Source of the DNA: Sarcina sp. DSM 11001
GTDB taxonomy: Bacteria; Bacillota; Clostridia; Lachnospirales; Lachnospiraceae
Assembly (NCBI RefSeq): GCF_900101015.1
Contig: NZ_FNFZ01000011.1
Span: forward strand, 1 to 64,000
Direction: 5' to 3'
Length of the DNA stretch: 64,000 nucleotides
The notes below the pieces were generated by a model. The model was not told where the DNA came from. It saw only the letters and a list, made by a program, of their open reading frames with translations, and did not search any database. The translations under genes were made by a program, and so were the position numbers. Positions 27,563-50,235 of this stretch are shown in pieces (the stretch's first letter is position 1; every line of letters begins with the position of its first letter).

Positions 27563-28309
27563 ATGCTTAAAATAGCCATTTACGGCAAGGGCGGCATCGG
27601 TAAATCCACCGTGACCAGTCATCTGGCGGCAGCTTTTGCCACGCTGGGAAAACGGGTGATCCAGATCGGATGCGATCCCAAGGCGGACTCTACGATCAAC
27701 CTGCTGGGCGGCAGACCGCTGCGGCCTGTGATGAATTATCTGCGCGAAGAGGATGAGGAGCCGGAGTCGATCGAGGAGATCGCAAAGGTCGGGTTCGGGG
27801 GTGTCCTGTGCATCGAGACCGGCGGTCCGACTCCCGGTCTGGGCTGTGCCGGACGCGGCATTATCGCTACTTTCCAGCTTCTGGAGGATCTGGAGCTGTT
27901 CGAGACCTGGAAACCGGATGTGGTTCTGTATGATGTCCTGGGGGATGTCGTCTGCGGCGGGTTTGCGGCACCGATACGGGAAGGATATGCTGAACACGTG
28001 CTCATAGTCACTTCCGGTGAAAAAATGGCGCTCTATGCAGCAAACAACATCGCGAGCGCAGTGGAGAACTTTGAGGACAGGAGCTATGCCCGCATCCGCG
28101 GGATCATTCTGAACCACCGCAACGTAGTGGGAGAGGACGAAAAGGTCCGCGCTTTCGCGGATAAGAGAGGGCTGGAGATCGTCGGGGAGATTCCCCGCAG
28201 CGATGAGATCACCCGTTTTGAGGACCTCGGCATGACGACTGTGGAGGGGGATCCGACGCTGCCGGTGAGCCGGACATTTATAGAGCTGGCACAGAAGCTG
28301 ATGATGTAA
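27563..28309 (+). CDS. NifH/BchL-like ATPase, system 1
   Basis: A dimeric P-loop iron protein of the nitrogenase superfamily that passes electrons to a NifDK-type partner with ATP hydrolysis. [20 protein letters not shown] holds the deviant Walker [11 protein letters not shown] the switch region. The two [4Fe-4S] ligands are Cys95 (GLGCAGRG) and Cys131 (LGDVVCGGF). ETGGPTPG and [14 protein letters not shown] are also conserved. At 248 residues it is shorter than NifH (~290), mainly in the region before the first cysteine and at the C-terminus. It sits 173 bp upstream of the D-K fusion gene, its likely partner. Whether the substrate is N2, a tetrapyrrole or another compound cannot be read from this gene. 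Confidence 0.92.
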
Positions 28310-28430
28310 ACATCTGCGGCATCTCTGAAGCCGGCACAGAAGCTGATGTGCAAAATCTGCGCTTTTAACACAGCCGGTTCAGAAGCTGATGTGAAACCGG
28401 CAGTATTTCCGCAGCCGGCACAGCTTCTGG
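28285..28430 (+). repeat. Tandem copies of the NifH-like 1 3' end
   Basis: GCTGGCACAGAAGCTGATG from the last codons recurs as GCCGGCACAGAAGCTGATG (28330), GCCGGTTCAGAAGCTGATG (28373) and a partial GCCGGCACAG (28414). The period is 41-45 bp. The copies drift progressively away from the gene. Confidence 0.8.
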
Positions 28431-28482
28431 CGCATAAGGATAAAGGGACAGTTACAAACGAGTCCTGAATCAGGAAATCATT

Positions 28483-31242
28483 ATGGAATCCATTATGGAA
28501 TCGGTCTATTATACCGCCGCGCAGCTCGCGGCCAGGGGGAGCGGGGATATCCCGAAGGAATTGAACTCCTCTACGCATCTGATCTATAGTTCGCCCGCGA
28601 CGCTGGCTTTCAATTCTCCTGGCGCAGAGGGATACGGGGTGAAAAGGGCGGGACTTGCCGTCCCGGGCTCGGTCATGCTGATCGTCTCCCCCGGCTGCTG
28701 CGGCCGCAACACCTCCGCCATCAGCCGCATGCCCGGTTATGAAGACCGTTTTTTTTACCTGACTATGGATGAGACAGATCTGGTCACGGGAAGGCATCTG
28801 AAAAAGATCCCGGACGCGGTCAGCGGTCTGTGCCGCGGCCTGGAGGAAAAGGGAAAACGCCCCCGGGTGGTCATGATCTGCATCACCTGTGTGGATGCCC
28901 TGCTGGGTACGGACATGGAGCGCGTTTGCAGGCGGGCGCAGGATAAAGTCCCCGGCGTGCGTGTCCGGCCCTGTTATATGTACGCACTGACCCGGGAGGG
29001 CAGAAAGCCTCCCATGGTACATGTGCGTCAGTCGATCTATGAGCTGCTGGAACCTCGGAAAAAGAGACCCTCGGCAGTGAACCTGCTGGGCTTTTTTGCC
29101 CCGCTTTCAGAAGGAAGTGAACTTCCCGCGGTCCTGTCGCAGGCTGGTGTGCGGACAGTCCGCCAGATCGGGGCCTGCAGGGATTATGATAGTTTTCAGG
29201 AGATGGCAGAGGCAAATTTCAACCTCGTCCTGAACCCTGAGGCGCGGCCGGCGGCCTATGACCTCCAGAAACGACTCGGCATCCCCTTCATCGAACTGGC
29301 CAGATTTTACCAGATCGACAGGATCGGGGCGCAGTATGCAGCGCTGGGTCAGGTTCTGCAGACGGCTTTTGACGATCAGAAATGGAAAAACGAAGCCGAA
29401 TCCGCGGTGGCTTCCTTCCGCGATGCTTTTCCGGACGCTGTCTTTTCTGTCGGGGAGGGTATGAACGGAAATCCCTTTGAGCTGGCCTGCGCTCTGGTAC
29501 GCGAGGGCTTTGCTGTGCGTGAGATCTTCGGGACGGTGAATGCGGACAGCTTTGTCTGGATCAGGGTGCTTGCTGCCCTGAGTCCGCAGACGCGGATCTA
29601 TTCAAACCTGCATCCCGCCATGCTGCATTACAGAGAGCATTATGCCGCCAGCCTGAATGATCCGGAAGGGGATGACGGAAAGAAAGACTACGGGAAGAAG
29701 GCTCCATTAAAGAAAGACTCCGGAAAGGAAGACCCTGGAAAGAGAGAAACCGGGAAAAAGGATCCCGCTGTCACGATCACCATCGGCCGCGATGCCGGCT
29801 GGTACCATCCTGAACTGCCGAACGTGCAGTGGATCTCGGATGTGCAGCCTTTCGGATACGGAGCAGTGACCGCCCTTTTCAACGCCCTCGGCGAAGCCAT
29901 GAGGACCGGCAGCCGCGGCGGTTTTTCACCGGAGATTACCCTCGGAGAAAAAGACGGCGTCAGCCGGACTGTCCAGGAAGATCGTGCTGCCCCCGGTACA
30001 GAAGAAAAGGCGGAAAAAACAGAAAGAGCGGAGAGACCGGAAAGGGTGGAGAAACCGGAAAGAGCGGAGAAACCGGAAAGAGCAGAGAGACCGGAAATGG
30101 GGGAAAGAACGGAAAAGCGGATCCGCGGTTTCCGGCGTTTTACTACCCCCTTTGCTCCGGACCAGTCCGGTGCGGTCTCTGTACTTTACGATATGGGCGG
30201 AATCAGCGTAGTCTGTGATGCGGGCGGCTGTACCGGTAATATCTGCGGATTTGATGAACCCCGCTGGTTTAAAGAGCGGAGCGCTGTTTTCAGCGCCGGC
30301 CTGAGGGACATGGACGCCATCCTGGGCCGTGATGACCGGCTGGTGGAAAAGCTCGCCGAAGCCGCCCAGCAGACGCCGGCGCGTTTTGCCGCAGTCATCG
30401 GGACACCTGTTCCTGCCGTGATCGGAACAGATTACCGCGCTTTATGCAGGATGGCAGAAAAGAAGACGGGACTCCCTGTCCTAGGGATCAATACAGACGG
30501 TATGGAATATTATGACAGGGGGATTGAAAAAACATATCTAGCCCTGTTGAAGAAGTTCTGCAGAAGAAAGGATGGAGCAAACGGGCTGGTCCGGGCGGAA
30601 AGCGGTTTTGTCCGACAGCAGTCCGTCCCCTCACGGATCATCGGAGTCTGGGGTTTTACTCCCCTGGATTTTGCCGGGATCCTCACTGCGGACGAACTAA
30701 AAAGCAGACTCCGGGACCAGGGCTTTGATGAGATCCTCTGCTGCGGAGCAGGAACAGACATAGAGGCTCTGAAAGACATAAGAAAGGCTGAAAAAAACCT
30801 GGTCGTTTCTCCGGCCGGGGCGGCTGCAGCTGTCTGGCTGGAAAAAGAATACGGAACTCCCTGGGAATATGGTATTCCCGGCGGGGAAGCCCTGATGGAG
30901 ATTATTTTTAAAAAACTGTCCGACCGATCCAATGGAGACAATATTTCGGACGGCATGGGAAAAGTGCTGGTCGTACATCAGCAGGTCCTGGCAGACAGAA
31001 TCAGGCGGCGTCTGGAGGAGGCGGGGATTTATGCAGTGACTGCGGGCTTTTTTATGATGAATAAAGATCTACTCCGCGGGGAGGATTCTGTCCTCAGGGA
31101 GGAAGCGGACCTGTATAAACTGGTCCTCGAAAGAGGCTTTGACTGCGTGATCGCCGACAGGGCGCTGGAACCTGTCCTGGCAGGTCTGCGGGTTAAATTG
31201 ATCCCTCTGCCGCATTTCGCGGTCTCAGGGGATTTGTCATAG
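28483..31242 (+). CDS. Fused NifD-like/NifK-like nitrogenase-superfamily protein, system 1
   Basis: This 919-residue protein joins two halves of the nitrogenase component 1 family. The D-like half (about 1-480) has SPGCCGRN (Cys72/73) and ICITCVDALLGTD (Cys133/136), placed like the cluster-ligating cysteines of NifD/BchN. A Lys-rich insertion near 395-430 and a RAERPERVEKPERAEKPERA linker (about 505-545) separate it from the K-like half. That half has VVCDAGGCTGNICG (Cys578, 583, 588), AILGRDDRL and GTPVPAVIGTDYRAL. Standard D and K subunits are separate ~450-550-residue chains, so the fusion is unusual. No FeMo-cofactor Cys motif is visible in the D half. Start: AGGAAA lies 7 nt before ATG 28483. 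Hyp genes follow. Confidence 0.85.
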   Translation: MESIMESVYYTAAQLAARGSGDIPKELNSSTHLIYSSPATLAFNSPGAEGYGVKRAGLAVPGSVMLIVSPGCCGRNTSAISRMPGYEDRFFYLTMDETDLVTGRHLKKIPDAVSGLCRGLEEKGKRPRVVMICITCVDALLGTDMERVCRRAQDKVPGVRVRPCYMYALTREGRKPPMVHVRQSIYELLEPRKKRPSAVNLLGFFAPLSEGSELPAVLSQAGVRTVRQIGACRDYDSFQEMAEANFNLVLNPEARPAAYDLQKRLGIPFIELARFYQIDRIGAQYAALGQVLQTAFDDQKWKNEAESAVASFRDAFPDAVFSVGEGMNGNPFELACALVREGFAVREIFGTVNADSFVWIRVLAALSPQTRIYSNLHPAMLHYREHYAASLNDPEGDDGKKDYGKKAPLKKDSGKEDPGKRETGKKDPAVTITIGRDAGWYHPELPNVQWISDVQPFGYGAVTALFNALGEAMRTGSRGGFSPEITLGEKDGVSRTVQEDRAAPGTEEKAEKTERAERPERVEKPERAEKPERAERPEMGERTEKRIRGFRRFTTPFAPDQSGAVSVLYDMGGISVVCDAGGCTGNICGFDEPRWFKERSAVFSAGLRDMDAILGRDDRLVEKLAEAAQQTPARFAAVIGTPVPAVIGTDYRALCRMAEKKTGLPVLGINTDGMEYYDRGIEKTYLALLKKFCRRKDGANGLVRAESGFVRQQSVPSRIIGVWGFTPLDFAGILTADELKSRLRDQGFDEILCCGAGTDIEALKDIRKAEKNLVVSPAGAAAAVWLEKEYGTPWEYGIPGGEALMEIIFKKLSDRSNGDNISDGMGKVLVVHQQVLADRIRRRLEEAGIYAVTAGFFMMNKDLLRGEDSVLREEADLYKLVLERGFDCVIADRALEPVLAGLRVKLIPLPHFAVSGDLS

Positions 31243-31311: not shown

Positions 31312-33852
31312 GTGACGAACAGAATGACGGTGCGTTTTCGTGTATACGGGATCGTGCAGGGTGTAGGCTTCCGCCCGACAGTGGACAGACATGCTGCTGT
31401 CGCAGGGATCAGCGGCAGCGTGTGCAACAAAGGACCTTACGTGGAGATCATTGCACAGGGTGATCCCGGCCGGATCAGCAGTTTCCGCACCCTGCTGCAG
31501 GAACAGCCGCCCAAAAGAGCAGCGATTCTGAAAATAGATGAGAAGCCGCTGGAAGAGACGACTGTGTATGATGATTTCAGGATCGTGGTCAGTGAGAAGA
31601 CAGACGGTGAGATTTATATTTCTCCTGACATTGCAATCTGCGACGAATGTGCGCAGGAACTGTATGACCCCGGAAACCGCAGATATCTGCATCCCTTTAT
31701 AAACTGCACCTGCTGCGGACCGAGGCTGACGATCCTGGACCTACTTCCTTACGACCGGGAACGGACCAGTATGAAAATGTTTCCCATGTGCAGGACCTGC
31801 GCGGAGGAATATCATAACCCGGCTTCACGCAGATATGATGCCCAGCCTGTCTGCTGCAATGACTGTGGACCACAGGTTTATCTGCTCCCTTCAAAAAAAA
31901 GTACTGGAAATAGAAATAATAGTACTGACACCCTCCGGGGCAGGGATGCCATTACAGCTGCGCGCAGAGCCATTCTTGACGGCGGGATCGTCGCAGTCAA
32001 GGGAATCGGCGGTTTTCATCTGTGCTGTGATGCCACTGATGAGGAGGCTGTCCACAGCCTCCGTCTGCGAAAGCGCCGCCCCGCGAAGCCCTTTGCGGTC
32101 ATGATGCGGGATGAGAAGACGGTCCTCAGGGAATGCCTCCTGAATGAGGAACAGAGACAGATCCTGACCGGCCACCAGAAGCCGATCCTGCTGCTTGACA
32201 GAAAAACAGATTCTGATAAAGAGGAAAAAGCAGGAATTAAAGCAGAGATTAAAGCCGGATTTATTGAAAGAAAGGCGGTTTCCGGGGCGGACATCTTTGA
32301 TTCTGCATCAGCGGACGATACAGTGGGAAGCCTGCTTGCTCCCTCTGTCGCGCCGGGGAACCCCAAAGTCGGCATCATGCTGCCCTATACACCGCTCCAC
32401 ATGCTGCTTTTCCGATATGATGACGGACTCTCCATGCCGGACTGTCTGATCATGACCAGCGGAAATGTCTCCGGAGCGCCGATCTGCAGAGACGATGCGG
32501 ATGTGCTGGCGGAGCTGTCTGATTTCTGTGACTGTATCCTGAGTCATGACCGCCTGATCCGGATCCGGGCCGACGATACGGTGATGGATTTTCACCGCGG
32601 TCATCCCTACATGATCCGCCGGTCGCGCGGCTATGCACCCCTGCCGGTGCTGATGTCGGAGGAGAAACTGTTTTTTGAAAAAAAGAAAGCGGATGCAGGA
32701 AAAACTTCTATCCTGGCGATCGGAGGTGAGCTGAAAAACACTTTCTGCATTACATCGGGAAATCTGTTTTACCTCTCACCTTATGTGGGGGATCTCGAGG
32801 ATCTGCGCACTGTGCGGGCTCTGGAGGAGACTGTGGCGCGCATGGAGAACCTCCTGTAAGTCTCTCCGTCGGCCATTATCTGCGACCTTCATCCGAAATA
32901 CAATTCCACGGCTGTGGCGGAAGAGATGGCCGCGCGAAAAGGAATACCGCTGTACCGCATCCAGCATCACTACGCCCACGTCCTGTCCTGCCTGGCGGAA
33001 AATGACCGCACAGACCGGGTGATCGGCGTGTCCTTCGATGGCACGGGGTATGGAACAGACGGGACGATCTGGGGCGGCGAGATCCTGCTTGCGGACTGCC
33101 ATGGATTTTCCAGGGCCGCTGCCATAGAGCCCTTCCTGCAGATCGGCGGGGACAGCGCCCCCCGTCAGGGATGGCGGATCGCTGCGTCCATGATCTGGTC
33201 CATCTGTAAAAAACAGCAGGATAATCCGGAGGCTGCGGCTGACGCTTATTTCAGGATCCTTGACCAGCTGTCCATCTGCGATTCGCAGAATGCGAAAGTA
33301 CAGCGCATGATGGCGGAACGAAAGATCCAGGCAGTACCTTCTACCAGCGCAGGCCGCCTCTTTGACGCGGTCAGCGCCATGCTGGGCATATGCCGGGAGT
33401 CCACTTATGAGGGCGAGGCCTCCATTGAGCTTGAATTTGCCGCGGAGCGGTATGCGCAAAAAGCAGGCTGTCACGGAACCGGTTACTGTTCGCAGCAAAA
33501 TGGATCGCAGGAGATTCCCCTCCGCTATATGGCAACCAGCCGGTTATTTGCCTCTCTGATGAGCAGGAGGCTTCTTGGAGAGGATCCTGAAAAGCTCGCC
33601 TATGATTTCCATGAGGGGCTTGCAGACCTGATCGTGGAAGCCTGTATCAGGATTTCCGGGGAGACCGGGATCAGGACTGCGGCACTTACAGGCGGCTGTT
33701 TCCAGAACCGCCTGCTGCTGTCTCTGGTGGAGGACAGATTGAGGAAGGATGGTCTTGAGGTACTGATCCATCATCTGGTCCCTCCCAATGACGGAGGGAT
33801 CGCGCTGGGCCAGGCGCTGGCAGGCAGATTTATGGCAGGATCAGAAGAATAA
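31312..33852 (+). pseudogene. hypF: HypF carbamoyltransferase interrupted by an in-frame TAA
   Basis: HypF makes the cyanide precursor for Fe(CN)2CO by moving a carbamoyl group from carbamoyl phosphate to HypE. Part one (31312-32859, GTG start with AAAGGA) has the acylphosphatase motif YGIVQGVGFRPTVDR, two zinc fingers (CDECAQEL to CTCCGPR; CRTCAEEY to CCNDCGP), and the YrdC-like domain with a charged insertion near residue 305. It ends MENLL-TAA. The same frame continues at once as VSPSAIICDLHPKYNSTAVA and then HHYAHVLSCLAEND and SFDGTGYGTDG of the Kae1-like domain, to 33852. Total length and all motifs fit one HypF, so a single stop codon breaks an otherwise intact gene. It may be a sequencing error, true inactivation or readthrough. 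The second part could restart at GTG 32914. Confidence 0.88.
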
Positions 33853-33947: not shown

Positions 33948-34160
33948 ATGTGTGTGGGATTATCGGCAAGAGTAGTGCGTCTGCAGAAGGACGGGACCGC
34001 CCTGGTGGACGCGTCCGGCGCCCGGAGGGAGGTTTCTGCGCAGCTTCTGGAAGATCTGATGCCGGGAGACTATGTCATGGTTCATGCAGGTGCGGCGATC
34101 GCAAAGATCACGCAGGAGGAGGAAGAAGAGGCAGAGGCGGTACTGGACGCCCTGTTCTGA
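33948..34160 (+). CDS. hypC: HypC/HupF-family hydrogenase maturation chaperone
   Basis: HypC binds HypD and carries the Fe(CN)2CO group to the NiFe-hydrogenase large subunit. The protein begins MCVGLSARVV, with the essential Cys2, followed by the small beta-barrel (GARREVSAQLLEDLMPGDYV) and an acidic tail. At 70 residues it is normal. CAGGAGG precedes the ATG with good spacing. It lies between hypF and hypD. Confidence 0.93.
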   Translation: MCVGLSARVVRLQKDGTALVDASGARREVSAQLLEDLMPGDYVMVHAGAAIAKITQEEEEEAEAVLDALF

Positions 34161-34260: not shown

Positions 34261-35418
34261 ATGAGTGATTCTAATGTAAAAAAGGATAGTGTTATCTCCA
34301 GGGCGAGGGAGATCATAGACCAATATGACGGCAGGGAGATCCGGATCATGGAGGTCTGCGGGACACATACGCACGAGATTTTCCGGCTCGGGATCCGACA
34401 GATCCTTCCTCCTTCGATCCATCTGATCTCAGGACCCGGATGTCCGGTCTGTGTGACGCCGGTCAGCTTTATCGATGAGGCCGTCCTGCTTGCCATGGAA
34501 AAAAATGCCACGATCTGCACATTTGGAGATCTGGTCAGGGTACCGGGATCAGCAAAATCCGGAGTAAAAGAGGAAGGAAAGACGGCAGACGCTCCTTCAT
34601 TCGAAAAGGAGAACAAAGGGACAGCAGGCCCCCCTCTTTTTCCTGCCTCCCTCGCTGCGGCCCGCGCCGCAGGCGCCCGCATTCAGGTCGTCTACGCGCC
34701 GCAGGACGCGGTCGCTTACGCGAAGGAGCATCCGCAGGAGCAGGTTGTCTTTTTATCTGTTGGATTTGAGACGACGACACCTTCGGTCTGTCTGGCGGTG
34801 AAGCAGGCTGTGGAGGAGGGACTTACGAATTTTTCCATCCTGACAGCGAATAAGACCATGCCGGCAGCGTACGCAGCGATGAAGGACAGCACAGATGCCT
34901 TCTTATATCCGGGCCATGTCCATGCGATCACCGGGACTGCCGTCTGCGAGGAGCTGGCGGCGGAGGGAACGAGCGGGGTAGTGGCGGGCTTTACAGCAAA
35001 GGAACTTTTGACCGCCATCGCCGTGATCGTAAAGAATATACAAAAGGGGGAGCCGTTTTTTGAAAACTGTTATCCCCGTGTTGTGCGCCGGGAGGGTTCG
35101 CCCCGGGCGCAGCGTCTGGTGGAAGAGATGATGGAACCCTGTGATGCCCGCTGGAGGGGGATCGGTGTCCTGCAGATGTCCGGTCTGCAGCTCCGCCCGC
35201 AATATGCGGACTACGATGCCCGGCATAAATTCGGCCTGCCGCAGATCGAGGGACGGGAAAATCCTGCCTGCCGCTGCGGGGAAGTCCTCCAGGGCAAATG
35301 CCTGCCTTCCGACTGCAGGGTGTTCGGAACAGGCTGTACACCGGAGCACCCGGTCGGCGCCTGCATGGTGTCCGGGGAAGGAGCCTGCTCTGCTTTTTAT
35401 CTGTATGGAAAGGCCTGA
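34261..35418 (+). CDS. hypD: Hydrogenase expression/formation protein HypD
   Basis: HypD is the Fe-S scaffold on which CN and CO are attached to iron with HypC. Conserved pieces are MEVCGTHTHEIFR, SGPGCPVCVTP and the C-terminal cysteine cluster CRCGEVLQGKCLPSDCRVF to GTGCTPEHPVGACMVSGEG that holds the [4Fe-4S] centre. A ~25-residue Lys/Glu-rich insertion follows VPGSAKSG (about residues 100-124), in the loop normally read as VPGS-S. GAGGTG lies just before ATG 34261. The 385-residue length is explained by the insertion. Confidence 0.95.
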   Translation: MSDSNVKKDSVISRAREIIDQYDGREIRIMEVCGTHTHEIFRLGIRQILPPSIHLISGPGCPVCVTPVSFIDEAVLLAMEKNATICTFGDLVRVPGSAKSGVKEEGKTADAPSFEKENKGTAGPPLFPASLAAARAAGARIQVVYAPQDAVAYAKEHPQEQVVFLSVGFETTTPSVCLAVKQAVEEGLTNFSILTANKTMPAAYAAMKDSTDAFLYPGHVHAITGTAVCEELAAEGTSGVVAGFTAKELLTAIAVIVKNIQKGEPFFENCYPRVVRREGSPRAQRLVEEMMEPCDARWRGIGVLQMSGLQLRPQYADYDARHKFGLPQIEGRENPACRCGEVLQGKCLPSDCRVFGTGCTPEHPVGACMVSGEGACSAFYLYGKA

Positions 35419-35537
35419 GACTGTTATGAAAAGCCTGAGATGCTGTTTCGATCATTATTACTAAAAAGGCACCGGGAACCGGATCCTCTTTTGGGTACAT
35501 AGAACTGCTTTCACTTTTTCACTACATGGAGGTGAAT

Positions 35538-36545
35538 ATGATTCATGATACAGTCACGCTCGCGCACGGGGCGGGCGGAAAACAGACTTCAGAATTGATT
35601 GAAAAGGTATTCCGCGCGCATTTTGAGAACCCTCTTTTTACACCGGATGACGCAGCTGTGCTGGAGATCCCGGCAGGGCGGCTGGCCATGTCCACAGACG
35701 GCTTTATTGTTTCTCCCGCTTTTTTTCCGGGCGGAAATATCGGCAAGCTGTCGATCTGCGGGACGGTCAACGACCTGGCCTGCATGGGGGCGCAGCCGCT
35801 TTATATGACCTGCGCGTTCGTGATCGAGGAGGGGTTTCCGATGGCGAAGCTGGAGGAGATCGCCGCAACGATGGAAAAGACTGCCGCGGAAACCGGTGTG
35901 AAGATCGTAGCCGGGGATACCAAGGTCGCGGGAAAAGGGCAGGTTGACGGTGTCTTCATCACTACGACGGCCATTGGACGCATCATGGACGGTGTGAAGA
36001 CGGGCGGCGCTCTCGCAAAGCCGGGAGACTGCGTCATCGTCACCGGCGACGTCGGCAGACATGGCTGCACGATCCTGCTCGCCCGGGACGATTTCGGGAT
36101 AGAAGCAGATGTAACCAGTGACTGCGCGCCTCTCTGGAAGGCAGTACAGAATGTTTTGACAGCGGCTCCAGATACCCATGTTATCCGTGATGCCACGCGG
36201 GGCGGCGTCGGTACAGTGCTCTACGAGATCGCCGGCCAGAGCAGCGTCGGATTTTCCCTTGAAGCGGAAAAGATCCCTGTGGATCCCGGAGTGCGCGGTG
36301 TCTGCGGCATGCTTGGACTCGAGCCCCTTTACCTCGCCTGTGAGGGACGTCTGGTCATTATCGCCCCTCCGGAAAAAAAAGACTGCATTCTGGAAACCCT
36401 CAGGACCAGTCCTTACACAGAAGGAGCGGCCTGCATCGGCACTGTCACCAGCGATCATCCGGGACGGGTCGTCATCAATACCGAGATCGGAGCGCAGACG
36501 ATCCTTCCCCAGCCAGGAAACGAACTCCTCCCGAGGATCTGTTGA
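35538..36545 (+). CDS. hypE: Hydrogenase maturation protein HypE
   Basis: HypE dehydrates the carbamoyl group on its C-terminal cysteine to a thiocyanate, the donor of CN. It has the AIRS/PurM fold: LAHGAGGKQTSELI, FTPDDAAVLEIPAG, GNIGKLSICGTVNDLACMGA and ATRGGVGTVLYEIA. The chain ends LLPRIC with the required terminal Cys. GGAGGTGAAT places the start at ATG 35538; the ATG at 35526 overlaps the ribosome site. It completes a hypF-C-D-E group; hypA and hypB are not in the window. Confidence 0.96.
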   Translation: MIHDTVTLAHGAGGKQTSELIEKVFRAHFENPLFTPDDAAVLEIPAGRLAMSTDGFIVSPAFFPGGNIGKLSICGTVNDLACMGAQPLYMTCAFVIEEGFPMAKLEEIAATMEKTAAETGVKIVAGDTKVAGKGQVDGVFITTTAIGRIMDGVKTGGALAKPGDCVIVTGDVGRHGCTILLARDDFGIEADVTSDCAPLWKAVQNVLTAAPDTHVIRDATRGGVGTVLYEIAGQSSVGFSLEAEKIPVDPGVRGVCGMLGLEPLYLACEGRLVIIAPPEKKDCILETLRTSPYTEGAACIGTVTSDHPGRVVINTEIGAQTILPQPGNELLPRIC

Positions 36546-41888: not shown

Positions 41889-41955
41889 CGCGGACCGGGG
41901 GACTATACCTTAGTCCGCTTTCGGCAGACCGGCAGTAAGCGAAAGGATTCTGTTT

Positions 41956-43785
41956 ATGAGAAAACTGGCTGTTAAGGGCAATATGAACCAGAGGGTTGAT
42001 GTGGCCATGCGGAAATTCCGTTCGCGGATGAATTCGTATCCTCTGGGAGTATGTCCTCTTGTCCTGTACCGGTCTCTGCTCCAGATTGCCATGAACCAGT
42101 CCTGCGGCAAATGTGTTCCCTGCCGGAACGGTCTGACAGAGGCGGACCGGCTGCTGCGCGGGATCATCGAAGGAGACGGCACACCGGAGACGATAGACCA
42201 GCTCAGAGATCTGTGCATGTTTATCGCCAGAACAGCGGACTGTGTTGTGGGTGTGGCGGCGGCCCTTCTTGTGCTGGACAGCATGAAGGAGTTTCCTGAC
42301 GAATATGACAGCCACATCTATCACAGGCACTGTGTGGAAAATACCACGCAGGCGGTCCCATGCAGGATCCTCTGTCCCGCGCAAGTCGATGTGCCCGGCT
42401 ATATCGCGCTGATCGCCAGGGGAGATTATGCCGGAGCTGTGAGCCTGATCAGGAACAGGAATCCATTTCCGACGGCCTGTGCGATGATCTGCGAGCATCC
42501 CTGTGAGCAGAAATGCCGCCGCAGGATCATCGATGCTCCGCTCAACATACGTGGACTCAAAAAATATGTTGTGGACATGGTGAATGCGGATGAGGTTCCT
42601 GCTCCGCGGCCCAATGTTTCCACCGGTAAAAAGATTGCCGTCGTCGGGAGCGGTCCCGCAGGTCTCACGGCGGCCTGGTTTCTGGCCCTGATGGGCCACA
42701 AGGCTGTGGTTTTTGAGGAGCACGAAAAGCCGGGCGGCATGCTTCGCTACGGGATCCCCGCCTATCGCCTCCCGAAAGACAGGCTGGACAGAGATATCAG
42801 GGCCATCCTGTCGGCCGGTGATATCGAACTGCGCTGCGGTGTGAAGATCGGGAGGGACGTCTCTTTTGCGGACCTGCGGAGGGATTATGACGCCGTCTAT
42901 CTGGGGCTGGGGGCACAGATTGGAAACCGCGTGCCCATGGAAAATGCCGATGCGGAAAATGTGATCCCGGCTGCGGATTTCCTGCAGGCAGCGGCCTCGG
43001 GACATCCCATGGATCTGAAGGATAAAAAGGTCGTCCTGATCGGAGGCGGCAATGTGGCTATGGACGCCGCCCGCACGGCGGTCCGTCTGGGAGCCGCTAC
43101 GATCCATGTCTTTACCCGGAAGCGCGATGATGTGACTGCGCTGCCCGGCGAACTGGAAAGCGCCATGCAGGAGGGTGTCCGCTTCAGGACAATGCTTTCT
43201 TTTATGAATATCGAGACGGAAAAGGAGAGCGGAAAGGTCTGCGCTGTGTGGCTGCAGCCCCAGATCGCGGGTGAATACAACCGGTTCGGGATGATGACGA
43301 CAGAACATTCAAGCCGCTACCCCTATCGTTTTAAATGTGATGTGCTGATCCTCGGAGTGGGCCAGCGCAGCGATGTCGAGCCCTTCGCAAACGCGGGGAT
43401 TCCGGTGGAGGGAGGCAGGATCGATGCCGATGAAGCCTGTATCGTCCGGGGATGGGACGGCGTATTTGCCGGCGGGGACTGTGTGACAGGCCCCTCCACC
43501 GCCATCAATGCCATCGCGGCAGGACAGGTCGCCGCATTCAATATCGACGAATATCTCGGCTATCATCACAAGATAAACTGCGATGTGCAGGTCCCGCCCG
43601 CCATGCCTGACCGCTGGGTTCCCACCGGCAGGGCTGAGGTCGAAGAAAAAGACCCCTTTGAGAGGAGAGAAAATTTTGATGAGGTCGAGATCCCGATGAC
43701 CCCGGAGGAAGCCATGCGCGAAGCCGGCAGGTGCCTGCGGTGTGATCATTACGGCTGCAATCCCGAAGCAGGAGACTGTTACTGA
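41956..43785 (+). CDS. NuoF-GltD fusion flavoprotein 2 (paralogue)
   Basis: A 609-residue paralogue of the protein at 37279, with the same module order and very similar sequence throughout. It has MNQSCGKCVPCRNGLTEADR at the NuoF-like end, VVGSGPAGLTAAWFLALMGH for FAD, VVLIGGGNVAMDAARTAVRL for NAD(P), WDGVFAGGDCVTGP and the final CLRCDHYGC. GAAAGGA precedes the ATG. Keeping two copies on either side of one formate dehydrogenase suggests heteromeric assembly or different redox partners; simple redundancy is also possible. Confidence 0.88.
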   Translation: MRKLAVKGNMNQRVDVAMRKFRSRMNSYPLGVCPLVLYRSLLQIAMNQSCGKCVPCRNGLTEADRLLRGIIEGDGTPETIDQLRDLCMFIARTADCVVGVAAALLVLDSMKEFPDEYDSHIYHRHCVENTTQAVPCRILCPAQVDVPGYIALIARGDYAGAVSLIRNRNPFPTACAMICEHPCEQKCRRRIIDAPLNIRGLKKYVVDMVNADEVPAPRPNVSTGKKIAVVGSGPAGLTAAWFLALMGHKAVVFEEHEKPGGMLRYGIPAYRLPKDRLDRDIRAILSAGDIELRCGVKIGRDVSFADLRRDYDAVYLGLGAQIGNRVPMENADAENVIPAADFLQAAASGHPMDLKDKKVVLIGGGNVAMDAARTAVRLGAATIHVFTRKRDDVTALPGELESAMQEGVRFRTMLSFMNIETEKESGKVCAVWLQPQIAGEYNRFGMMTTEHSSRYPYRFKCDVLILGVGQRSDVEPFANAGIPVEGGRIDADEACIVRGWDGVFAGGDCVTGPSTAINAIAAGQVAAFNIDEYLGYHHKINCDVQVPPAMPDRWVPTGRAEVEEKDPFERRENFDEVEIPMTPEEAMREAGRCLRCDHYGCNPEAGDCY

Positions 43786-43835
43786 CGGATAAGGAATAAA
43801 CGGACAAAAGGAATGAAAAAAGGAGGTTGCAGAAT

Positions 43836-44430: not shown

Positions 44431-45312
44431 ATGATCAAAATCGCGTTTTACGGCAAAGGAGGTATTGGTAAGTCCACGACAGTCACCAATCTGTCTGTCG
44501 CTCTGGCCCGACGCGGAGTTAAGGTACTGCAGATCGGGTGTGATCCCAAGGCGGATTCTACCCGTCTTCTGCGTCCGGACTTCTCTTTATCAGGCAACAG
44601 CACTCTGGAAGTCCGGGAAAAGAATAAAGAAAATGAACTGTCTCGGGATCTGTCTGCAGAGAGCTCCGATATTCCGGATCCTGCGCAAGAGATATCTGCG
44701 ATGATCAGGGGCCTCCGGGAGGGCGCCCGACTGACTGTAATGGATTATATCCGCGCGCGCGAGCCTTTTTCTCTTGAGGACGTGGTCAAAACCGGTTATG
44801 CCGGTGTACTGTGTGTGGAGACGGGAGGTCCGCTTCCCGGGCAGGGATGTGCCGGCAGGGCAGTGATCACAGCGCTTGAAAAGCTGGAGCAGATGGGAAT
44901 CTATGAGTCCTATAAACCGGATGTCGTGCTTTATGATGTCCTGGGGGACGTCGTCTGCGGCGGCTTTGCCAGCCCCATGCGGAGCGGCGTCGCGGACTAT
45001 GTCTACATCCTCACTTCCGGCGAAAGCATGGCGCTGTACGCCGCCGCCAATATCGCCCTCGCCCTCGAACACTTTCAGGGGCGCGGCTATGCCCGTCTGG
45101 GCGGCCTGATCCTCAACCGTCGGGACGTGCCCGATGAACAAGAAAAAGCAGAAGCCCTGGCAGCAGGATTCGGAACACAGGTGATCGGCGCGCTTTCCCG
45201 CAGCTCCCTTGTCCCGGAGGCAGAGGAACGCGGACAATGCCTGCTCCAGGCCTTTCCGCAGTCGGAGATCGCGGAGGAGTACCGCCGGATTGCCGGGAGG
45301 ATTGTCAGGTGA
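44431..45312 (+). CDS. NifH-like iron protein, system 2
   Basis: The second nitrogenase-superfamily reductase. [20 protein letters not shown] is the Walker [14 protein letters not shown] the switch region. The [4Fe-4S] ligands are Cys140 (GQGCAGRA) and Cys176 (LGDVVCGGF). VETGGPLPG and [11 protein letters not shown] are conserved. A ~35-residue polar insertion follows ADSTRLL (about residues 50-85); without it the chain aligns well with NifH, more closely than NifH-like 1 does. The ribosome site is AAGGGAG. It leads the system-2 genes (peptide, D-like, K-like, ferredoxin, NapH-like), so it is the likely reductase for the separate D/K pair. Confidence 0.92.
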
Positions 45313-45921: not shown

Positions 45922-45945
45922 AGAATTAACCTGACAGGACTGTTT

Positions 45946-46148: not shown

Positions 46149-47591
46149 ATGCTTCAGAGAATATTGCCGCAGGAACAGGATCGCCGGGGGGATTGTCCGG
46201 CCACTCTTACATCGGGAAAAAGGGGCTGTGCTTCGGCGGAGGATGTCGGAGCGGCTGTCCGGATCCGTGATGCTTCTTTTCCGGAACCCTTTGCCAGGGG
46301 ACTGGAATTCAACGCTCCCGTTCACGGAGCCTGGAACATCGTCCATGTGGGTATGCAGGTGCCCGAATGCCATCAGATTTATGTCTGCGCGGACAACTGC
46401 ATGCGGGGTGTCGTCCTGACAGCGGCGGAAATGGATGCGGCAGACCGTTTTTCCTGTGTACTTCTGGAGGAAGAAGACCTCTATGAGGGAAGTCTGGAGA
46501 CAGTCACGATTGAGGGGGTGGCGGATGCGATCCGGCGCCTGCCCTACCGTCCGAGAGCGGTGGCGGTCTTTCTCGTCTGTCTCCACCATTTTGTGGGGAC
46601 GGATGCCGCCTATGTCTACAGTTCTCTGGAAAAACAGTTTCCCGACATAGATTTCATGCGGTGCTGGATGGATCCGGTCATGAGAAGGAGCGGCCTCTCG
46701 CCGGAACAGAAACTGAAGGAGTCCATGTTCCGTCCGATCCGGCCTTTGCCGCCGGAACGGAGGATCGTCTGTGATCTCGGAGACAACCAGCCGCTCGATC
46801 CTGAGAGCGAGCTTTCGCTGGCCATCCGGGAAGCGGGGTTTACCTTATTTCAGCTTCAGGACTGCAAGACCTATGACGATTATCTGCGGATGGGCGCTGC
46901 AGACCTTTTTATCACGCGCAGCCCGTCCGGGATCCACGGCGTCATGCAGCTGGCAAAGCGTCTGGGCAGGCTCTTTCTCTATCTGCCCCCTGCCTGCGGG
47001 GAAGAGGAGATCAATGCGGAACTGGCAGCCCTCAGGGAGGTGCTGGCGGGTATACGGCCAGAATGCGCACGATCAGGGGATATGCGATCAGGAAGCATAC
47101 GGCTTGAGGATGGAAAGGAGCCGTTCAGGAGATCCCGTGAGGCACTTGCCCGTGTCCTGTCGCTGATCGGTGACACAGAGATGACCATCGACCACTTTGC
47201 GACACCCCGTCCGCTGAGTCTGGCCAGGCTCCTTCTGGAGAGCGGATTCCATGTGACCCGCGTCTACCTGGACGCCGTGGCACAGGAGGAAAAGGATGAC
47301 TTTGACTGGCTCAGGGACAGGTTTCCGGACCTGATCCTCAATGCGACGGTCCACCCCGGGATGCGTGTCCTGCACAAAAGAGAAAATGAGGGACATATGC
47401 TGGCGATCGGACCCAAGGCGGCCTGGTTCGGCGGCACTGCCCATTTCGTCAATCTTGTGGAATGCGGAGGACTCTGGGGCTTTACCGGGATCGAGAAGCT
47501 GGCTGCGCAGATGGAGGATGCTTTCTTACATGAAAAAGATACCCGGAAGCTGGTGCCCCGCAAGGGCTTCGGGTGCACCTGTGTGCTGTGA
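46149..47591 (+). CDS. NifD-like nitrogenase-superfamily protein, system 2
   Basis: A 480-residue member of the nitrogenase component 1 family. HGAWNIVHVGMQVPECHQIY corresponds to the NifD/BchN segment with HGPxGC. Cys74, Cys80 and Cys84 (ECHQIYVCADNCMRG) and Cys144 (FLVCLHHFVGTD) are candidate ligands of an inter-subunit Fe-S cluster. The region where NifD has its FeMo-cofactor Cys reads ITRSPSGIHGVMQLAKRLG, with no Cys. The C-terminus (VECGGLWGFTGIEKLAAQME) keeps the D-subunit fold but not the NifD His context. CCAGGGG sits 7 nt before ATG 46149. The gene is bracketed by inverted hairpin elements. Confidence 0.83.
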   Translation: MLQRILPQEQDRRGDCPATLTSGKRGCASAEDVGAAVRIRDASFPEPFARGLEFNAPVHGAWNIVHVGMQVPECHQIYVCADNCMRGVVLTAAEMDAADRFSCVLLEEEDLYEGSLETVTIEGVADAIRRLPYRPRAVAVFLVCLHHFVGTDAAYVYSSLEKQFPDIDFMRCWMDPVMRRSGLSPEQKLKESMFRPIRPLPPERRIVCDLGDNQPLDPESELSLAIREAGFTLFQLQDCKTYDDYLRMGAADLFITRSPSGIHGVMQLAKRLGRLFLYLPPACGEEEINAELAALREVLAGIRPECARSGDMRSGSIRLEDGKEPFRRSREALARVLSLIGDTEMTIDHFATPRPLSLARLLLESGFHVTRVYLDAVAQEEKDDFDWLRDRFPDLILNATVHPGMRVLHKRENEGHMLAIGPKAAWFGGTAHFVNLVECGGLWGFTGIEKLAAQMEDAFLHEKDTRKLVPRKGFGCTCVL

Positions 47592-47610
47592 TCGATAGCG
47601 GGATGAAGCA

Positions 47611-47674: not shown

Positions 47675-47732
47675 TGATGAAGAATAAATGATGAAGAGTA
47701 AATTTAGAACCGAGACAACAGGGTGAAAAAAT

Positions 47733-49277
47733 ATGCGACAGGTTTTCAGAAAAATACCGGTTTATACCGGTGACGTCTCCGGCGTCTGCAGCGCGCTTTT
47801 TGAACTGGGAGGCATGGTCGTCATGCATGATCCCTCCGGCTGTAATTCGACCTATAATACGCATGATGAAATTCGCTGGTATGATCACGACAGCCTGATC
47901 TTTCTTTCCGGGCTGGACGAGATGGATGCCATCATGGGAAGTGATGACCGTCTGATCCATGATATTGCAGAGGCGGCCCGTATTTACTCGCCGGAGTTTA
48001 TAGCGGTCGCGAATTCGCCGATCCCCTACATCACAGGAATGGATTTTGAGGCGGTCTGCCGCGCAGTTGAGCAGGAAACGGGCATCCCGTCCTTTTATAT
48101 TTCTACAAACGGGATGCACGATTACGTCCACGGAGCCGGCCTCGCGCTGCTGCGCGTCGCCGAGCGTTTTACTGCACCTGGAAGGCAGGAAACAGAGCAG
48201 GATCCTGGACTTAGTGCATCCGCGGAATTCATGAAATCCATGAAACCTATGAAAGCACATCGGATCACCTGCAATCTCCTGGGGGTGACTCCGCTGGATT
48301 TTACGAATCCATCTACCTTGCCCAGTCTCTATTCAAAATTTTCCGAGGCCGGTGCGGACATCCTTTCCTGCTGGGCAATGGCCTGCAGGCCGGGGAATGA
48401 AGATAAGTGCAATGTGGAGGAAGACGACCTCAATTCGGGAGAGGACAATCCGCTCAGGGAAGAGGTTAGACTCAATATCTGGGAGGACGATCAGCTCAGG
48501 AATGAAGACAGCCGCCCGGTGGACGGTAACTTGGAAGCTGCAGTGAATTCCCGGCATAGTCTGCTGGAACAGATCTCGGTCAGTTCTCAGGCAGATGTGA
48601 ATATCCTCCTGTCTTCCGTTGGTTTTCCTGCCGCAGAGTATATGTATAAAAAATACGGTATTCCTTTCGTGGCAGGTATACCTGCCCGGGGAGTGGAAAA
48701 ACTGTTTTTTGAAGCGGTGCGCAGGGCCGTACAGACTGGACAGAGCCAGTATCCTTTCCGGCAGCGGACGGAGATCACCGGATGCCGGATGTCTGCTGAA
48801 ATGGGCTTTGCAGAAACATCCGCAGAAAAGAAGGAAGAATCTGTATATTGCTTCATTGGAGAGCCTGTCATCATGTCGTCTCTGGCAGCGCAGACAGCCG
48901 CTTTGACCGGGAGCAGGACATATGTTTTTGGCGCGACGGAGGGAGCAGCTGCTTTTCTGGGAGATACGGACTCTCCCCTGGGCGGGGAGGAGGAGATCCA
49001 GGCTGCCCTGGAGCATCTGATGGAAAACGGCTGTGCATTGAAAGTCGTCGCGGATCCCTGCTATGGCGACGTACTGCCAGAGGGCTGCGGCCTGATCCGC
49101 CTTCCTCACCTCGCGTTTTCCGGGCGGATCTTCCTCGATGAGATCCCGGATCTGATGAGTATGGATATTGCAGGACTGGGTGCAGAAACGCGGAAAAAAT
49201 CAGACACAACGAATGTGATCCCCGGGAAAGAGGGACTGTCTGTAAAAACGCGGAAAAATCAGGACAGATTGTATTGA
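47733..49277 (+). CDS. NifK-like nitrogenase-superfamily protein, system 2
   Basis: A 514-residue K-type subunit, clearly homologous to the C-terminal half of the 919-residue fusion protein. It has VYTGDVSGVCSALFELGGMV and HDPSGCNSTYN (Cys17, Cys37), FLSGLDEMDAIMGSDDRLIH and NSPIPYITGMDFEAVCRAVE. Where NifK has a cluster cysteine before the GDD region, this protein has Pro, so its cluster must be simpler than a P-cluster. An acidic insertion (about residues 228-270), itself made of repeated DNA, interrupts the middle. It should pair with the D-like protein just upstream. AGGGTG precedes the ATG. Confidence 0.83.
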   Translation: MRQVFRKIPVYTGDVSGVCSALFELGGMVVMHDPSGCNSTYNTHDEIRWYDHDSLIFLSGLDEMDAIMGSDDRLIHDIAEAARIYSPEFIAVANSPIPYITGMDFEAVCRAVEQETGIPSFYISTNGMHDYVHGAGLALLRVAERFTAPGRQETEQDPGLSASAEFMKSMKPMKAHRITCNLLGVTPLDFTNPSTLPSLYSKFSEAGADILSCWAMACRPGNEDKCNVEEDDLNSGEDNPLREEVRLNIWEDDQLRNEDSRPVDGNLEAAVNSRHSLLEQISVSSQADVNILLSSVGFPAAEYMYKKYGIPFVAGIPARGVEKLFFEAVRRAVQTGQSQYPFRQRTEITGCRMSAEMGFAETSAEKKEESVYCFIGEPVIMSSLAAQTAALTGSRTYVFGATEGAAAFLGDTDSPLGGEEEIQAALEHLMENGCALKVVADPCYGDVLPEGCGLIRLPHLAFSGRIFLDEIPDLMSMDIAGLGAETRKKSDTTNVIPGKEGLSVKTRKNQDRLY

Positions 49278-49355
49278 TAAGTAAACCGGTTTAAGAACAA
49301 AAAAGGTTCCAACTATTAATTAGAAATTTGTTAAAAAGGAATAAGGAGTATTTGG

Positions 49356-49571
49356 ATGGCAGCAAAACGATATGCCGAAGTAGACCAATACCGATGTGTT
49401 TCCTGCGGTGCATGTACCCATGACTGTCCGAAAGAAGCGATCTCTGTGTGGAAGGGCTGTTATGCTGTTGTGGACCGCAGTCTCTGTATCGGCTGCGGGC
49501 GGTGTGAGAAAGTGTGTCCTGCCGGCAGCATTACCATTATCACCATAACGAAAGGTTTGATTAATGAATAA
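49356..49571 (+). CDS. 2[4Fe-4S] ferredoxin
   Basis: A 71-residue ferredoxin with two full motifs: CVSCGACTHDCP and CIGCGRCEKVCP. A short basic N-terminus and a hydrophobic C-terminal strand complete it. AAGGAGTATTTGG precedes the ATG. Its end overlaps the start of the NapH-like gene by 8 bp, which implies translational coupling. It is a good candidate for the electron donor to NifH-like 2 or for a soluble partner of the membrane protein. Confidence 0.95.
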   Translation: MAAKRYAEVDQYRCVSCGACTHDCPKEAISVWKGCYAVVDRSLCIGCGRCEKVCPAGSITIITITKGLINE

Positions 49572-50235
49572 ACAGAAGCATTGGTATGACTATTTCTGGA
49601 TCTGGACCATTGTGTATTTTGTCCTGGGCTTTTTTAACATTCTGTTTGCCTGGCTCGGTATGTTTGACTTTATGGTTCCTCTTCTTTTTGCCATATTCGG
49701 AGGCAACAAGTTTTTCTGCAACCATATGTGCGGAAGGAGCCAGCTGTTGACAGTTATCCCGCAGATCCCGCAGCAGATCCACAAGTCGAGAGTGAAAAAA
49801 TGGAAGGAGAAGGGTGGAAAAGGGGAAATGCCCAGGCAGCGGTTCAGCCTGTGCCGGAATAAACCGACGCCGGCATGGATGCCCTCAAAGGCTTTTCGCT
49901 ATGGATTCCTTATTTTCTTCCTGACCATGTTCGGGAATATTGTTTATCAGACATGGAGAGTATTTGGCGGCGCAACACTCAGACAATCCATCAAACTGTT
50001 CTGGACATTCCGCGTGCCGTGGGGATGGGCCTATACAGCCGGGAGCGCGCCGGACTGGGCTGCGCAGTACGCTTTCGGCTTTTACAGCCTCATGCTTACA
50101 TCAGCGCTGATCGGACTGATCCTGATGGTTCTGTTCAAACCGAGAACATGGTGCAGCTTCTGCCCGATGGGGACCATGACACAGCTGATCTGCCGCCTGC
50201 GGCATCGCGGGGAGAGTCCTGAATCCAACGGATAA
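49564..50235 (+). CDS. NapH-like membrane 4Fe-4S protein
   Basis: A 223-residue membrane protein with about four hydrophobic segments (WIWTIVYFVLGFFNILFAWL; YGFLIFFLTMFGNIVYQTW; ALIGLILMVLFKP). Two cysteine motifs, FFCNHMCGRSQLL and WCSFCPMGTMTQL, match the CxxxCP-type sites of the NapH/NosR/RnfB-related family, which carry electrons between the quinone or membrane pool and periplasmic or cytoplasmic partners. The usual C-terminal pair of 4Fe-4S ferredoxin motifs is missing; the separate ferredoxin gene just upstream may supply it. The function here is inferred from context as an electron conduit for system 2. Confidence 0.8.
   Translation: MNKQKHWYDYFWIWTIVYFVLGFFNILFAWLGMFDFMVPLLFAIFGGNKFFCNHMCGRSQLLTVIPQIPQQIHKSRVKKWKEKGGKGEMPRQRFSLCRNKPTPAWMPSKAFRYGFLIFFLTMFGNIVYQTWRVFGGATLRQSIKLFWTFRVPWGWAYTAGSAPDWAAQYAFGFYSLMLTSALIGLILMVLFKPRTWCSFCPMGTMTQLICRLRHRGESPESNG

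Follow-up and report, generated by a model that had tools for sequence, protein, structure and literature searches.

In [FeFe]-hydrogenases the CO and CN- ligands are attributed to HydG, an enzyme considered essential for assembly of the active site, and the normal client of HypCDEF is the [NiFe]-hydrogenase. In a 2022 survey HydG, and separately HypAB, were reported missing in Clostridium acetogens, and in the sections of that survey cited here both absences are left open (PMC9431212). The window analyzed in this work, a 64,000-nt stretch of the genome of Sarcina sp. DSM 11001 (Lachnospiraceae), carries an operon that combines nitrogenase-like genes with [NiFe]-type Hyp genes, and this operon probably serves to mature the H-cluster of [FeFe]-hydrogenase without HydG. 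In many gut bacteria HydG appears to have given way to such a nitrogenase-like operon and its Hyp proteins.

Gene content and relationship to nitrogenase-like systems

The features of the locus are as follows, with curated cut-offs in parentheses where a model was used.

27563..28309, + strand: H1, NifH-like ATP-dependent iron protein of clade H1 (PF00142, 286 bits)
28483..31242, + strand: D1-K1 fusion, nitrogenase component-1-like (top score NifE)
31312..33852, + strand: hypF, with an in-frame TAA at 32857-32859 (Acylphosphatase, zf-HYPF, YrdC and HypF_C over two ORFs)
33948..34160, + strand: hypC (TIGR00074, 58.8 bits; cut-off 48)
34261..35418, + strand: hypD (TIGR00075, 364 bits; cut-off 192.8)
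35526..36545, + strand: hypE, C-terminal Cys present (TIGR02124, 405 bits; cut-off 251.6)
36751..37014, + strand: TM1266-family [FeFe]-hydrogenase system regulator (TIGR03959, 113 bits; cut-off 60.8; PF21699)
37279..43785, + strand: local cassette of a GltD-like flavoprotein, a Cys-type FdhA and a second GltD-like flavoprotein
44431..45312, + strand: H2, second NifH-like iron protein (PF00142, 281 bits, in two stretches)
46149..47591, + strand: D2, divergent component-1-like subunit
47733..49277, + strand: K2, component-1-like subunit (PF00148, 75 bits; hhalign to K1, 100%)
49356-49571, + strand: two-[4Fe4S] ferredoxin, probably local
49564-50235, + strand: NapH-like membrane protein, probably local
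51827..53074, + strand: hydF, [FeFe]-hydrogenase maturation GTPase/scaffold (TIGR03918, 567 bits; cut-off 325.6)

The two nitrogenase-like systems described in an earlier note on this stretch, with Hyp and formate dehydrogenase genes between them, are real; the note overlooked the TM1266 gene and the standing of the Hyp genes as a conserved core partner. D1 and K1 are separate genes in many relatives, H2 of the window genome carries an insertion of ~40 residues, and the second GltD-like flavoprotein reads as a near-duplicate of the first. In hypF the frame resumes past the TAA, and the site is open in 7/7 close relatives; the interruption of HypF in the window genome counts against the maturation reading.

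The locus shares with NifEN/NifHDK the component-1 and iron-protein folds, the NifH cluster cysteines and the NifE top score of D1-K1, but its proteins fall below the curated cut-offs, occupy separate clades in the D tree and are linked to Hyp and Hyd genes. Against the respective cut-offs, the NifH model gave 302 (H1) and 292 (H2) of 394 bits, and the D1-K1 fusion scored 29/654 with NifD, 34.5/823 with VnfD, 33.5/513 with the alternative alpha chain, 103/505 with NifE and 75/1229 with NifEN. BchLNB, CfbCD and methylthio-alkane reductase (Mar) have the same fold and H/D/K composition, but the operon proteins lie below the cut-offs for BchL (201/345) and BchX (201/331) with H1, BchB (35/490) and BchN (20/420) with the fusion, CfbC (287 for H1 and 277 for H2, of 402) and CfbD (27 for the fusion and 30 for K2, of 268). 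Mar was compared by fold scores only, which tie with those of other component-1 proteins. Since every NCBIfam nitrogenase-superfamily model matched scored below its cut-off, the placement in an uncharacterized branch of the superfamily, made in the earlier note, is supported. Its suggestion that one of the two D-K sets may be a scaffold also gains support from the NifE top score and from the solved-structure matches of D1, which comprise nitrogenase alpha chains, NifE/NifEN and protochlorophyllide reductase. In the D tree, the outside proteins closest to D2 belong to H-D-K sets with a FecBCD importer (e.g., on a Treponema saccharophilum plasmid), which we take to be of group IV type. Those sets differ from the operon in their D clade, no Hyp genes were seen in their loci, and 8/11 family genomes with such a set lack HydF.

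Conservation of the operon

A scan for D1 in a collection of one genome per species (84,980 species) returned 486 encoding stretches, of which the best 80, each cut at 10 kb or at contig ends, were analyzed as related loci. These take in Blautia, Roseburia faecis, Coprococcus comes, Anaerobutyricum hallii, Eubacterium ramulus, Olsenella and Clostridium. The conserved order is H1-D1-K1-hypF-hypC-hypD-hypE-TM1266-(H2)-D2-K2, with hydF and hydE sometimes attached. An H1 match was found in 80/80 of these loci (77 in a non-overlapping layout), and HypFCDE accompany D1-K1 most regularly, each in 63–73 of the 80. On either strand and within the cut ends, TM1266 matched in 42/80 loci, HydF in 22/80 and HydE in 8/80. 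The TM1266 gene lies between HypE and H2; in one locus HydE and HydF are placed between D1 and K1. In Pseudoramibacter the arrangement is K2-HydF-HydE, and in 3/3 relatives with HydG that were examined, HydG adjoins HydF, together with TM1266 and/or HydE. The conserved cysteines of HypC, HypD and HypE are retained across relatives, as in [NiFe] maturation (HypC Cys2 in 82/82, HypE C-terminal Cys in 79/79).

Neighborhood conservation, a check proposed in the earlier note, was found for the H-D-K/Hyp unit but not for the formate dehydrogenase genes, as FdhA with GltD-like flavoproteins occurs in 0/80 of the best 80 loci. This cassette is local and outside the conserved system, and the proposed role of formate as electron donor is therefore unsupported. 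The ferredoxin and NapH-like gene pair was likewise found in 0/80, a set in which few loci extend far past K2. A reductase that receives its electrons from formate by way of the flavoproteins and ferredoxin, as first proposed, would account for the Fdh and GltD-like genes inside the window locus; given their absence from related loci, and with Blautia luti, an operon species, reported to lack formate dehydrogenase in the sections of PMC12773636 cited here, this model is scarcely credible.

Distribution relative to HydG and hydrogenase genes

In the host-family sample of 299 Lachnospiraceae genomes, D1 was present in 19, including Sarcina sp. DSM 11001. HydF was called with TIGR03918 at E <= 1e-60, HydE with TIGR03956 over cut-off, HydG likewise by profile over cut-off, and the [FeFe]-hydrogenase gene by PF02906. 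All 19 operon genomes carry HydF, HydE (in one genome just a fragment at the edge of a contig) and a PF02906 gene, as expected of HydEFG maturation, but HydG is over cut-off in 0/19, against a family-wide presence of 131/299. Among HydF-bearing family genomes the operon occurs in 19/33 lacking HydG vs 0/128 possessing it (Fisher p = 3.5e-16, uncorrected for kinship). HydG was also over cut-off in 0/45 operon genomes of a named collection, drawn from the best 80 of 486 loci; 4 of these repeat members of the 19, some are Actinomycetota, and many are MAGs of unstated completeness. HydE was present in 8/8 of the named-collection genomes tested and looks ordinary in operon genomes, and H-cluster motifs are intact in 8/8 operon-genome hydrogenases examined. 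Both in genomic position and in phyletic distribution the operon occupies the place of hydG, and the two appear from sequence to have been swapped repeatedly, with at least 11 changes of state on one HydF tree, many branches of which are weak.

The [NiFe] branch of hydrogenase biology is sparse in the same genomes. Unlike HypABCDEF maturation, in which the window's HypC, D and E (over curated cut-offs) and HypF (by Pfam domains) would otherwise place it, the operon has its Hyp genes linked to nitrogenase-like genes, 17/19 family operon genomes have no [NiFe] large subunit (2/19 do) and 15/19 have no HypA match (3/19 are over cut-off); the window genome has neither. Blautia luti produces H2 and has hydrogenase activity, and only [FeFe]-hydrogenase genes are described in the sections of PMC12773636 cited here; B. 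luti MSK.16.34, which may differ from the strain of that work, has the operon and no HydG over cut-off.

Other genomes complicate this picture. PF02906 occurs without HydF and without HydG in ~114–118 of the 299 family genomes, so a hydrogenase gene alone is not proof of a maturation pathway; HydE was missing in 15/15 genomes picked from this class. Of 29 family genomes with HydE and HydF but no HydG, 10 lack the Hyp operon: 5 have a Hyp-less nitrogenase-like set, 3 an ABC importer, and 2 are unexplained. The Hyp-less relative set consists of H2-D2-K2 with a FecB/FecD-type importer, TM1266 and HydF; H2 groups in a clade with such HydF-linked sets, and one HydG-plus genome (G224) carries one.

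A candidate route to the H-cluster and its alternatives

The presence of HydE, HydF and TM1266 and the absence of HydG, in the neighborhood and genome-wide, point to [FeFe]-hydrogenase cofactor assembly and away from a stand-alone metabolic reductase. Strong comparative genomics argues for the predicted link between operon and maturation, and the ligand chemistry is what we infer; that the operon replaces HydG stands on far firmer ground than do the order and chemistry of the steps at D1-K1 and D2-K2. HypFCDE and the two nitrogenase-like reductase/scaffold sets may together supply the Fe-CO-CN synthon in place of HydG. HypF and HypE would convert carbamoyl phosphate to the cyanide ligand, and HypC-HypD would build an Fe-CN-CO unit, both as for [NiFe]-hydrogenases. 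With no nickel enzyme to receive it in most operon genomes, this unit would pass to the NifEN-like D1-K1. Because HypCDEF yields Fe(CN)2CO and HydG yields Fe(CO)2CN, a ligand exchange must be assumed, and D1-K1 with ATP-driven electrons from H1 could alter the ligands, for instance by making CO from CO2 or by exchanging CN for CO. D2-K2, with H2 or H1, would complete or carry the Fe(CO)2(CN)-type synthon, and HydE and HydF would then complete the two-iron cluster and hand it to the hydrogenase. That this amounts to a second H-cluster route, in which a nitrogenase-superfamily enzyme reworks the HypFCDE unit into a two-CO/one-CN synthon for HydE/HydF, is a serious but tentative proposal, with somewhat less than an even chance of being correct.

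The nitrogenase-like enzyme might instead bear, or be matured by, Hyp-made Fe(CN)2CO and act on another substrate, its association with HydE/HydF reflecting shared regulation or redox physiology. The constancy of HypFCDE beside D1-K1 and the lack of a [NiFe]-hydrogenase client in most family operon genomes are consistent with this, but it leaves unexplained the absence of HydG from every tested operon genome, the HydE/HydF genes that several loci have within or next to the operon and the position of TM1266, and we consider it unlikely. A ThiH-like radical SAM paralog could perform the HydG reaction, leaving the operon another H-cluster step such as repair, storage or iron supply: 20/45 operon genomes have a HydG-profile match of 162–217 bits in ORFs of ~370–510 aa, and an atypical HydG is proposed for Clostridium acetogens in the sections of PMC9431212 cited here. 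No HydG-profile match above 95 bits was found in 25/45 named-collection and 5/19 family operon genomes, so no ThiH-like stand-in is seen there; Pseudoramibacter alactolyticus and Olsenella profusa are examples of operon genomes with no ThiH-like gene. The exclusion of true HydG is also left unexplained, and this reading is quite improbable. Still less probable is that HydE and HydF draw on CO, CN- or Fe-carbonyl compounds that come from the environment or are imported, with the operon a helper only. HydF matured with HydE alone gave ~1% activation, doubled by added CO or CN- (quoted in the sections of PMC9431212 cited here), and ABC importers adjoin HydE/HydF in some HydG-less genomes, but operon genomes encode a Hyp set of their own, in which the conserved cysteines are retained.

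Returning to HydG-independent maturation by the operon, no prior report of such a route was found in searches of the open-access literature. The operon may answer both puzzles of the industrial Clostridium acetogens, the missing HydG and HypCDEF without HypAB (in C. ljungdahlii, PMC9431212 gives HypE-D-C-F as CLJU_RS11345-11360), and the orphan nitrogenase-like clade becomes a set of testable candidate maturases. If the proposed route is true, the [NiFe], [FeFe] and nitrogenase assembly lines would converge in a single pathway, a nitrogenase-like enzyme would for the first time be seen to work on an organometallic hydrogenase precursor, and much of the hydrogen metabolism of gut microbes would depend on an ATP-dependent organometallic pathway.

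Gene content and spread of the operon

All genes listed in the earlier note were confirmed in the window, where the locus is laid out as follows.

Genes of the window locus (coordinates, strand, product)
27563-28309, +, H1, NifH-like iron protein
28483-31242, +, D1-K1 fusion, nitrogenase component-1-like
31312-33852, +, hypF, with an in-frame TAA at 32857-32859
33948-34160, +, hypC
34261-35418, +, hypD
35526-36545, +, hypE
36751-37014, +, TM1266-family regulator (TIGR03959)
37279-43785, +, cassette encoding FdhA with a GltD-like flavoprotein on either side
43827-44291, +, AhpC/TSA-family peroxiredoxin
44431-45312, +, H2, NifH-like iron protein
46149-47591, +, D2
47733-49277, +, K2
3' of K2, +, ferredoxin, then NapH-like protein
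between the NapH-like gene and hydF, +, fumarylacetoacetate-hydrolase-family gene
51827-53074, +, hydF

The Sarcina sp. DSM 11001 genome (4.15 Mb, 76 contigs, 98.6% complete) contains three PF00148 matches, all inside this locus, and none were found elsewhere in the genome. The hypF frame resumes past the TAA, and the same position is open in 7/7 close relatives; the stop may stem from misassembly, mark a defect of this strain or be read through, and the working state of the system in this strain is therefore uncertain. The FdhA of the cassette is of the Cys type and is flanked by near-duplicate NuoF/GltD-like flavoproteins, the whole forming an insertion between the TM1266 gene and H2. Between H2 and D2 lies a 68-aa ORF (45523-45729) with a double-glycine-type leader, LNDDAMNQVTGG, which resembles a secreted-peptide precursor.

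In a family sample of 299 Lachnospiraceae genomes, drawn nearly one per genus, the D1-K1 protein was matched at E <= 0.001 in 66, and the 19 with a close D1 (over 420 bits) are termed operon genomes here. The operon is split among contigs in three of these assemblies (G136, G230 and G091), D2-K2 sits on a separate contig in G071, and in G167 H1 is preceded by a partial K-like piece only. A D1 scan of 84,980 species genomes yielded 486 encoding stretches, of which the best 80 were retained; these include Blautia schinkii, B. luti, B. massiliensis, Eubacterium ramulus, Roseburia faecis, Coprococcus comes, Faecalicatena contorta, Pseudoramibacter alactolyticus, Olsenella profusa, Clostridium luticellarii and Anaerobutyricum hallii, as well as Coriobacteriaceae/Atopobiaceae MAGs. 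The recurring order is H1-D1-K1-HypF-HypC-HypD-HypE-TM1266-(H2)-D2-K2. Counted by BLAST over 45 bits on either strand, with flanks of <=10 kb that often end at contig ends, the best 80 of 486 loci contain H1 (80), HypF (73), HypC and HypD (66 each), HypE (63), D2 (57), K2 (52), TM1266 (42), H2 (33), HydF (22) and HydE (8); in a non-overlapping ORF layout the numbers are somewhat lower (e.g., HydF 18, TM1266 40). By our estimate, a single-copy gene of a 3 Mb genome would fall in a 20 kb locus by chance in <1/100 loci. Only 18 of 97 loci extend 1.5 kb past K2, four of them with HydF directly after it, so the HydF counts are lower bounds and the absence of the ferredoxin and NapH-like protein from the best 80 of 486 loci is a weak test. 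The earlier note proposed an uncharacterised reductase with formate as a possible electron source; the association of H, D and K with Hyp genes recurs among relatives, but FdhA and GltD-like proteins occur in 0 of the best 80 of 486 loci.

The operon is linked to HydE and HydF and excludes HydG

The operon co-occurs with HydE and HydF, is linked to [FeFe]-hydrogenase genes, and is mutually exclusive with HydG. HydG (TIGR03955) scored above cut-off in 131/299 family genomes and in 0/19 operon genomes. All 19 operon genomes carry HydF (TIGR03918, E <= 1e-60; 161/299 in the family, 160 above the curated cut-off), HydE above cut-off (in G091 only as a contig-end piece), the hydrogenase family PF02906 (275/299) and HypD (54/299). 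Among HydF-bearing genomes the operon is present in 19/33 lacking HydG versus 0/128 with it (Fisher p 3.5e-16, kinship ignored). HydG was likewise below cut-off in all 45 genomes, many of them MAGs of unstated completeness, that we chose from the best 80 named-collection loci, each with D1 and HypF; four share match coordinates with G263, G124, G159 and G202, leaving ~60 distinct operon genomes without HydG. HydE was found in the 8/8 named-collection genomes examined. No [NiFe] large subunit was matched in 17/19 operon genomes and no HypA in 15/19, HypA being above cut-off in three.

HydG-profile matches of 162-217 bits were obtained in 20 of the 45 named-collection genomes, from ORFs of ~370-510 aa; by our reading this is what ThiH-like proteins would give. 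No match above 95 bits was found in the other 25, nor in five of the 19 family operon genomes (G000, G230, G069, G167 and G203), where the sole match coincides with the HydE gene, and thus the HydG profile detected no tyrosine-lyase stand-in in these 30.

The TM1266 product (113 bits to TIGR03959, cut-off 60.8) belongs to a family named iron-only hydrogenase system putative regulator. Gene order was inspected in three HydG-plus relatives and is TM1266-HydE-HydG-HydF (L192), TM1266-HydG-HydF (L193) or HydE-HydG-HydF (L194). The Pseudoramibacter locus L198 reads HypE-TM1266-H2-D2-K2-HydF-HydE, in L043 HydE and HydF stand between D1 and K1, and in G203 a hydrogenase gene shares the operon contig, ~3 kb past hypE. 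H-cluster motifs are intact in 8/8 operon genomes whose hydrogenase region was inspected.

INDEPENDENCE
The HydF tree comprises 50 rows, 20 from operon genomes and 30 HydG-plus rows picked by us, non-randomly, from 128. At least 11 changes between operon and HydG states are needed on it, a figure that is an indication, since only 18/58 inner branches are well supported in the 61-row version. Some operon/HydG neighbours are well supported, such as G243 and G183 with G054 (100/96). Judged from this tree, there seem to have been repeated swaps between HydG and the operon.

HydG-less genomes without the operon

About 114-118 of the 299 family genomes have PF02906 without HydF or HydG (e.g., L163 in G059 and L162 in G003), HydE was also missing in 15/15 such genomes picked by us, and the G059 hydrogenase keeps all three H-cluster motifs. 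A hydrogenase gene alone therefore proves no maturation route; it is the retention of HydE and HydF that carries the argument. HydE is present in 29 of the 33 HydF-plus, HydG-minus family genomes, and 19 of these 29 have the operon. Five more (G117, G134, G226, G227 and G281), all without HypD, carry an H2-D2-K2 set alongside a FecB-type binding protein or a complete FecBCD-type importer; in three (G048, G142 and G181) a different ABC importer adjoins HydE/HydF, its binding protein being of the NMT1 type in G142 and G181 and the G048 importer being assigned by layout only; and two, G011 (86% complete) and G128 (69% complete), fall in none of these groups. Two genomes go against the proposed replacement of HydG: G224 has a Hyp-less H2-D2-K2 set together with both HydG and HydF, and such a set is also found in G175, which has neither HydF nor HydG.

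In the Hyp-less loci L172-L175, L058 and L207, H2-D2-K2 accompanies a FecB/FecD-type importer; L172-L175 carry HydF, which in L207 stands at the locus edge, and L172 and L175 also carry HydE. TM1266 occurs in L172 and L207 and, as a fusion with the importer ATPase, in L174 and L175. In L182, L183 and L197, all from HydG-less genomes, a TauT-like ABC importer, with a PF09084 NMT1 binding protein in the first two and recognized by layout in L197, adjoins HydF/HydE and perhaps imports a cofactor precursor. A 213-aa protein without Pfam match (L182:7160-7798, -) adjoins HydE and the NMT1 importer. On Treponema saccharophilum plasmid pTS1 (L202), H-D-K genes annotated as nitrogenase adjoin an iron ABC transporter, a set of the same broad kind as FecBCD-linked sets without Hyd genes; in the D tree such H-D-K-FecBCD sets lie apart from the D1 and D2 clades.

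Protein relationships and a possible route to the H-cluster

The D tree separates a D1 clade (100/99) and a D2 clade (100/100) from NifD/NifE, the D2 clade taking in the Hyp-less H2-D2-K2 sets, and in the H tree H2 joins Hyp-less, HydF-linked sets (96/84). By hhalign D1 is related to D2 and K1 to K2. The best profile for the D1-K1 fusion is NifE, nitrogenase alpha chains and NifE/NifEN score about equally with D1, and fold comparison fails to separate the component-1 families for these proteins. Both H1 and H2 retain the two cluster cysteines. Conserved cysteines in D1 are C72, C73, C133 and C136 (98/98), C149 (95/98), C164 (96/98) and C232 (90/98), and in K1 C53 and C58 (52/52). D2 keeps C97 and C157 (73/73), C93 (72/73) and C252 (66/73), and K2 keeps C37 (57/57); the three-plus-one pattern of D2 and K2 would suit a NifEN-type [4Fe4S] cluster. 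The HypE C-terminal Cys (79/79), HypC Cys2 (82/82) and many HypD cysteines (82/82) are kept, and so the cyanide-making chemistry looks intact.

Blautia luti produces H2, its extracts show H2-dependent methyl viologen reduction (14-644, apparently mU per mg), its described hydrogenases are [FeFe]-type (hydABC and hydM), and it is without formate dehydrogenase; the words HydG and maturation are absent from the sections of this source drawn on here (PMC12773636). Strain MSK.16.34 (L108/G312), which may differ from the published strain, has the operon and HydE, and the profile found no HydG, only a 190-bit ThiH-like match. According to the portions used of PMC9431212, hydG was undetected in five of eight Clostridium acetogens despite HydE and HydF, and five have HypCDEF without HypA/HypB, with locus tags ordered F-C-D-E; an atypical HydG, environmental ligands and unknown nickel traffic were hypothesized, both puzzles were left open, and nitrogenase appears there once, within a reference title. 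The same acetogens also have [NiFe] hydrogenases, so their Hyp proteins may serve both. We found no publication in the open-access literature joining HydG absence, Hyp genes and the nitrogenase-like operon.

Fe(CN)2CO is the established product of HypFCDE, and HydG is known to provide HydE with an Fe(CO)2CN synthon (both products are also given in the portions used of PMC9431212). The HydE of operon genomes looks ordinary, with 71 positions invariant in 26 sequences, including all three radical-SAM motif cysteines, and three others consistently different from HydG-plus sequences, of which only two were compared. Reduction of CO2 to CO is a known activity of nitrogenase iron proteins and cofactors. 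In the proposed route, HypFCDE would be the source of the cyanide and iron unit, CO and reducing power would come from H1/D1-K1 and H2/D2-K2, which would also act as scaffold, and the product of the Hyp and nitrogenase-like sets would enter H-cluster assembly at HydE.
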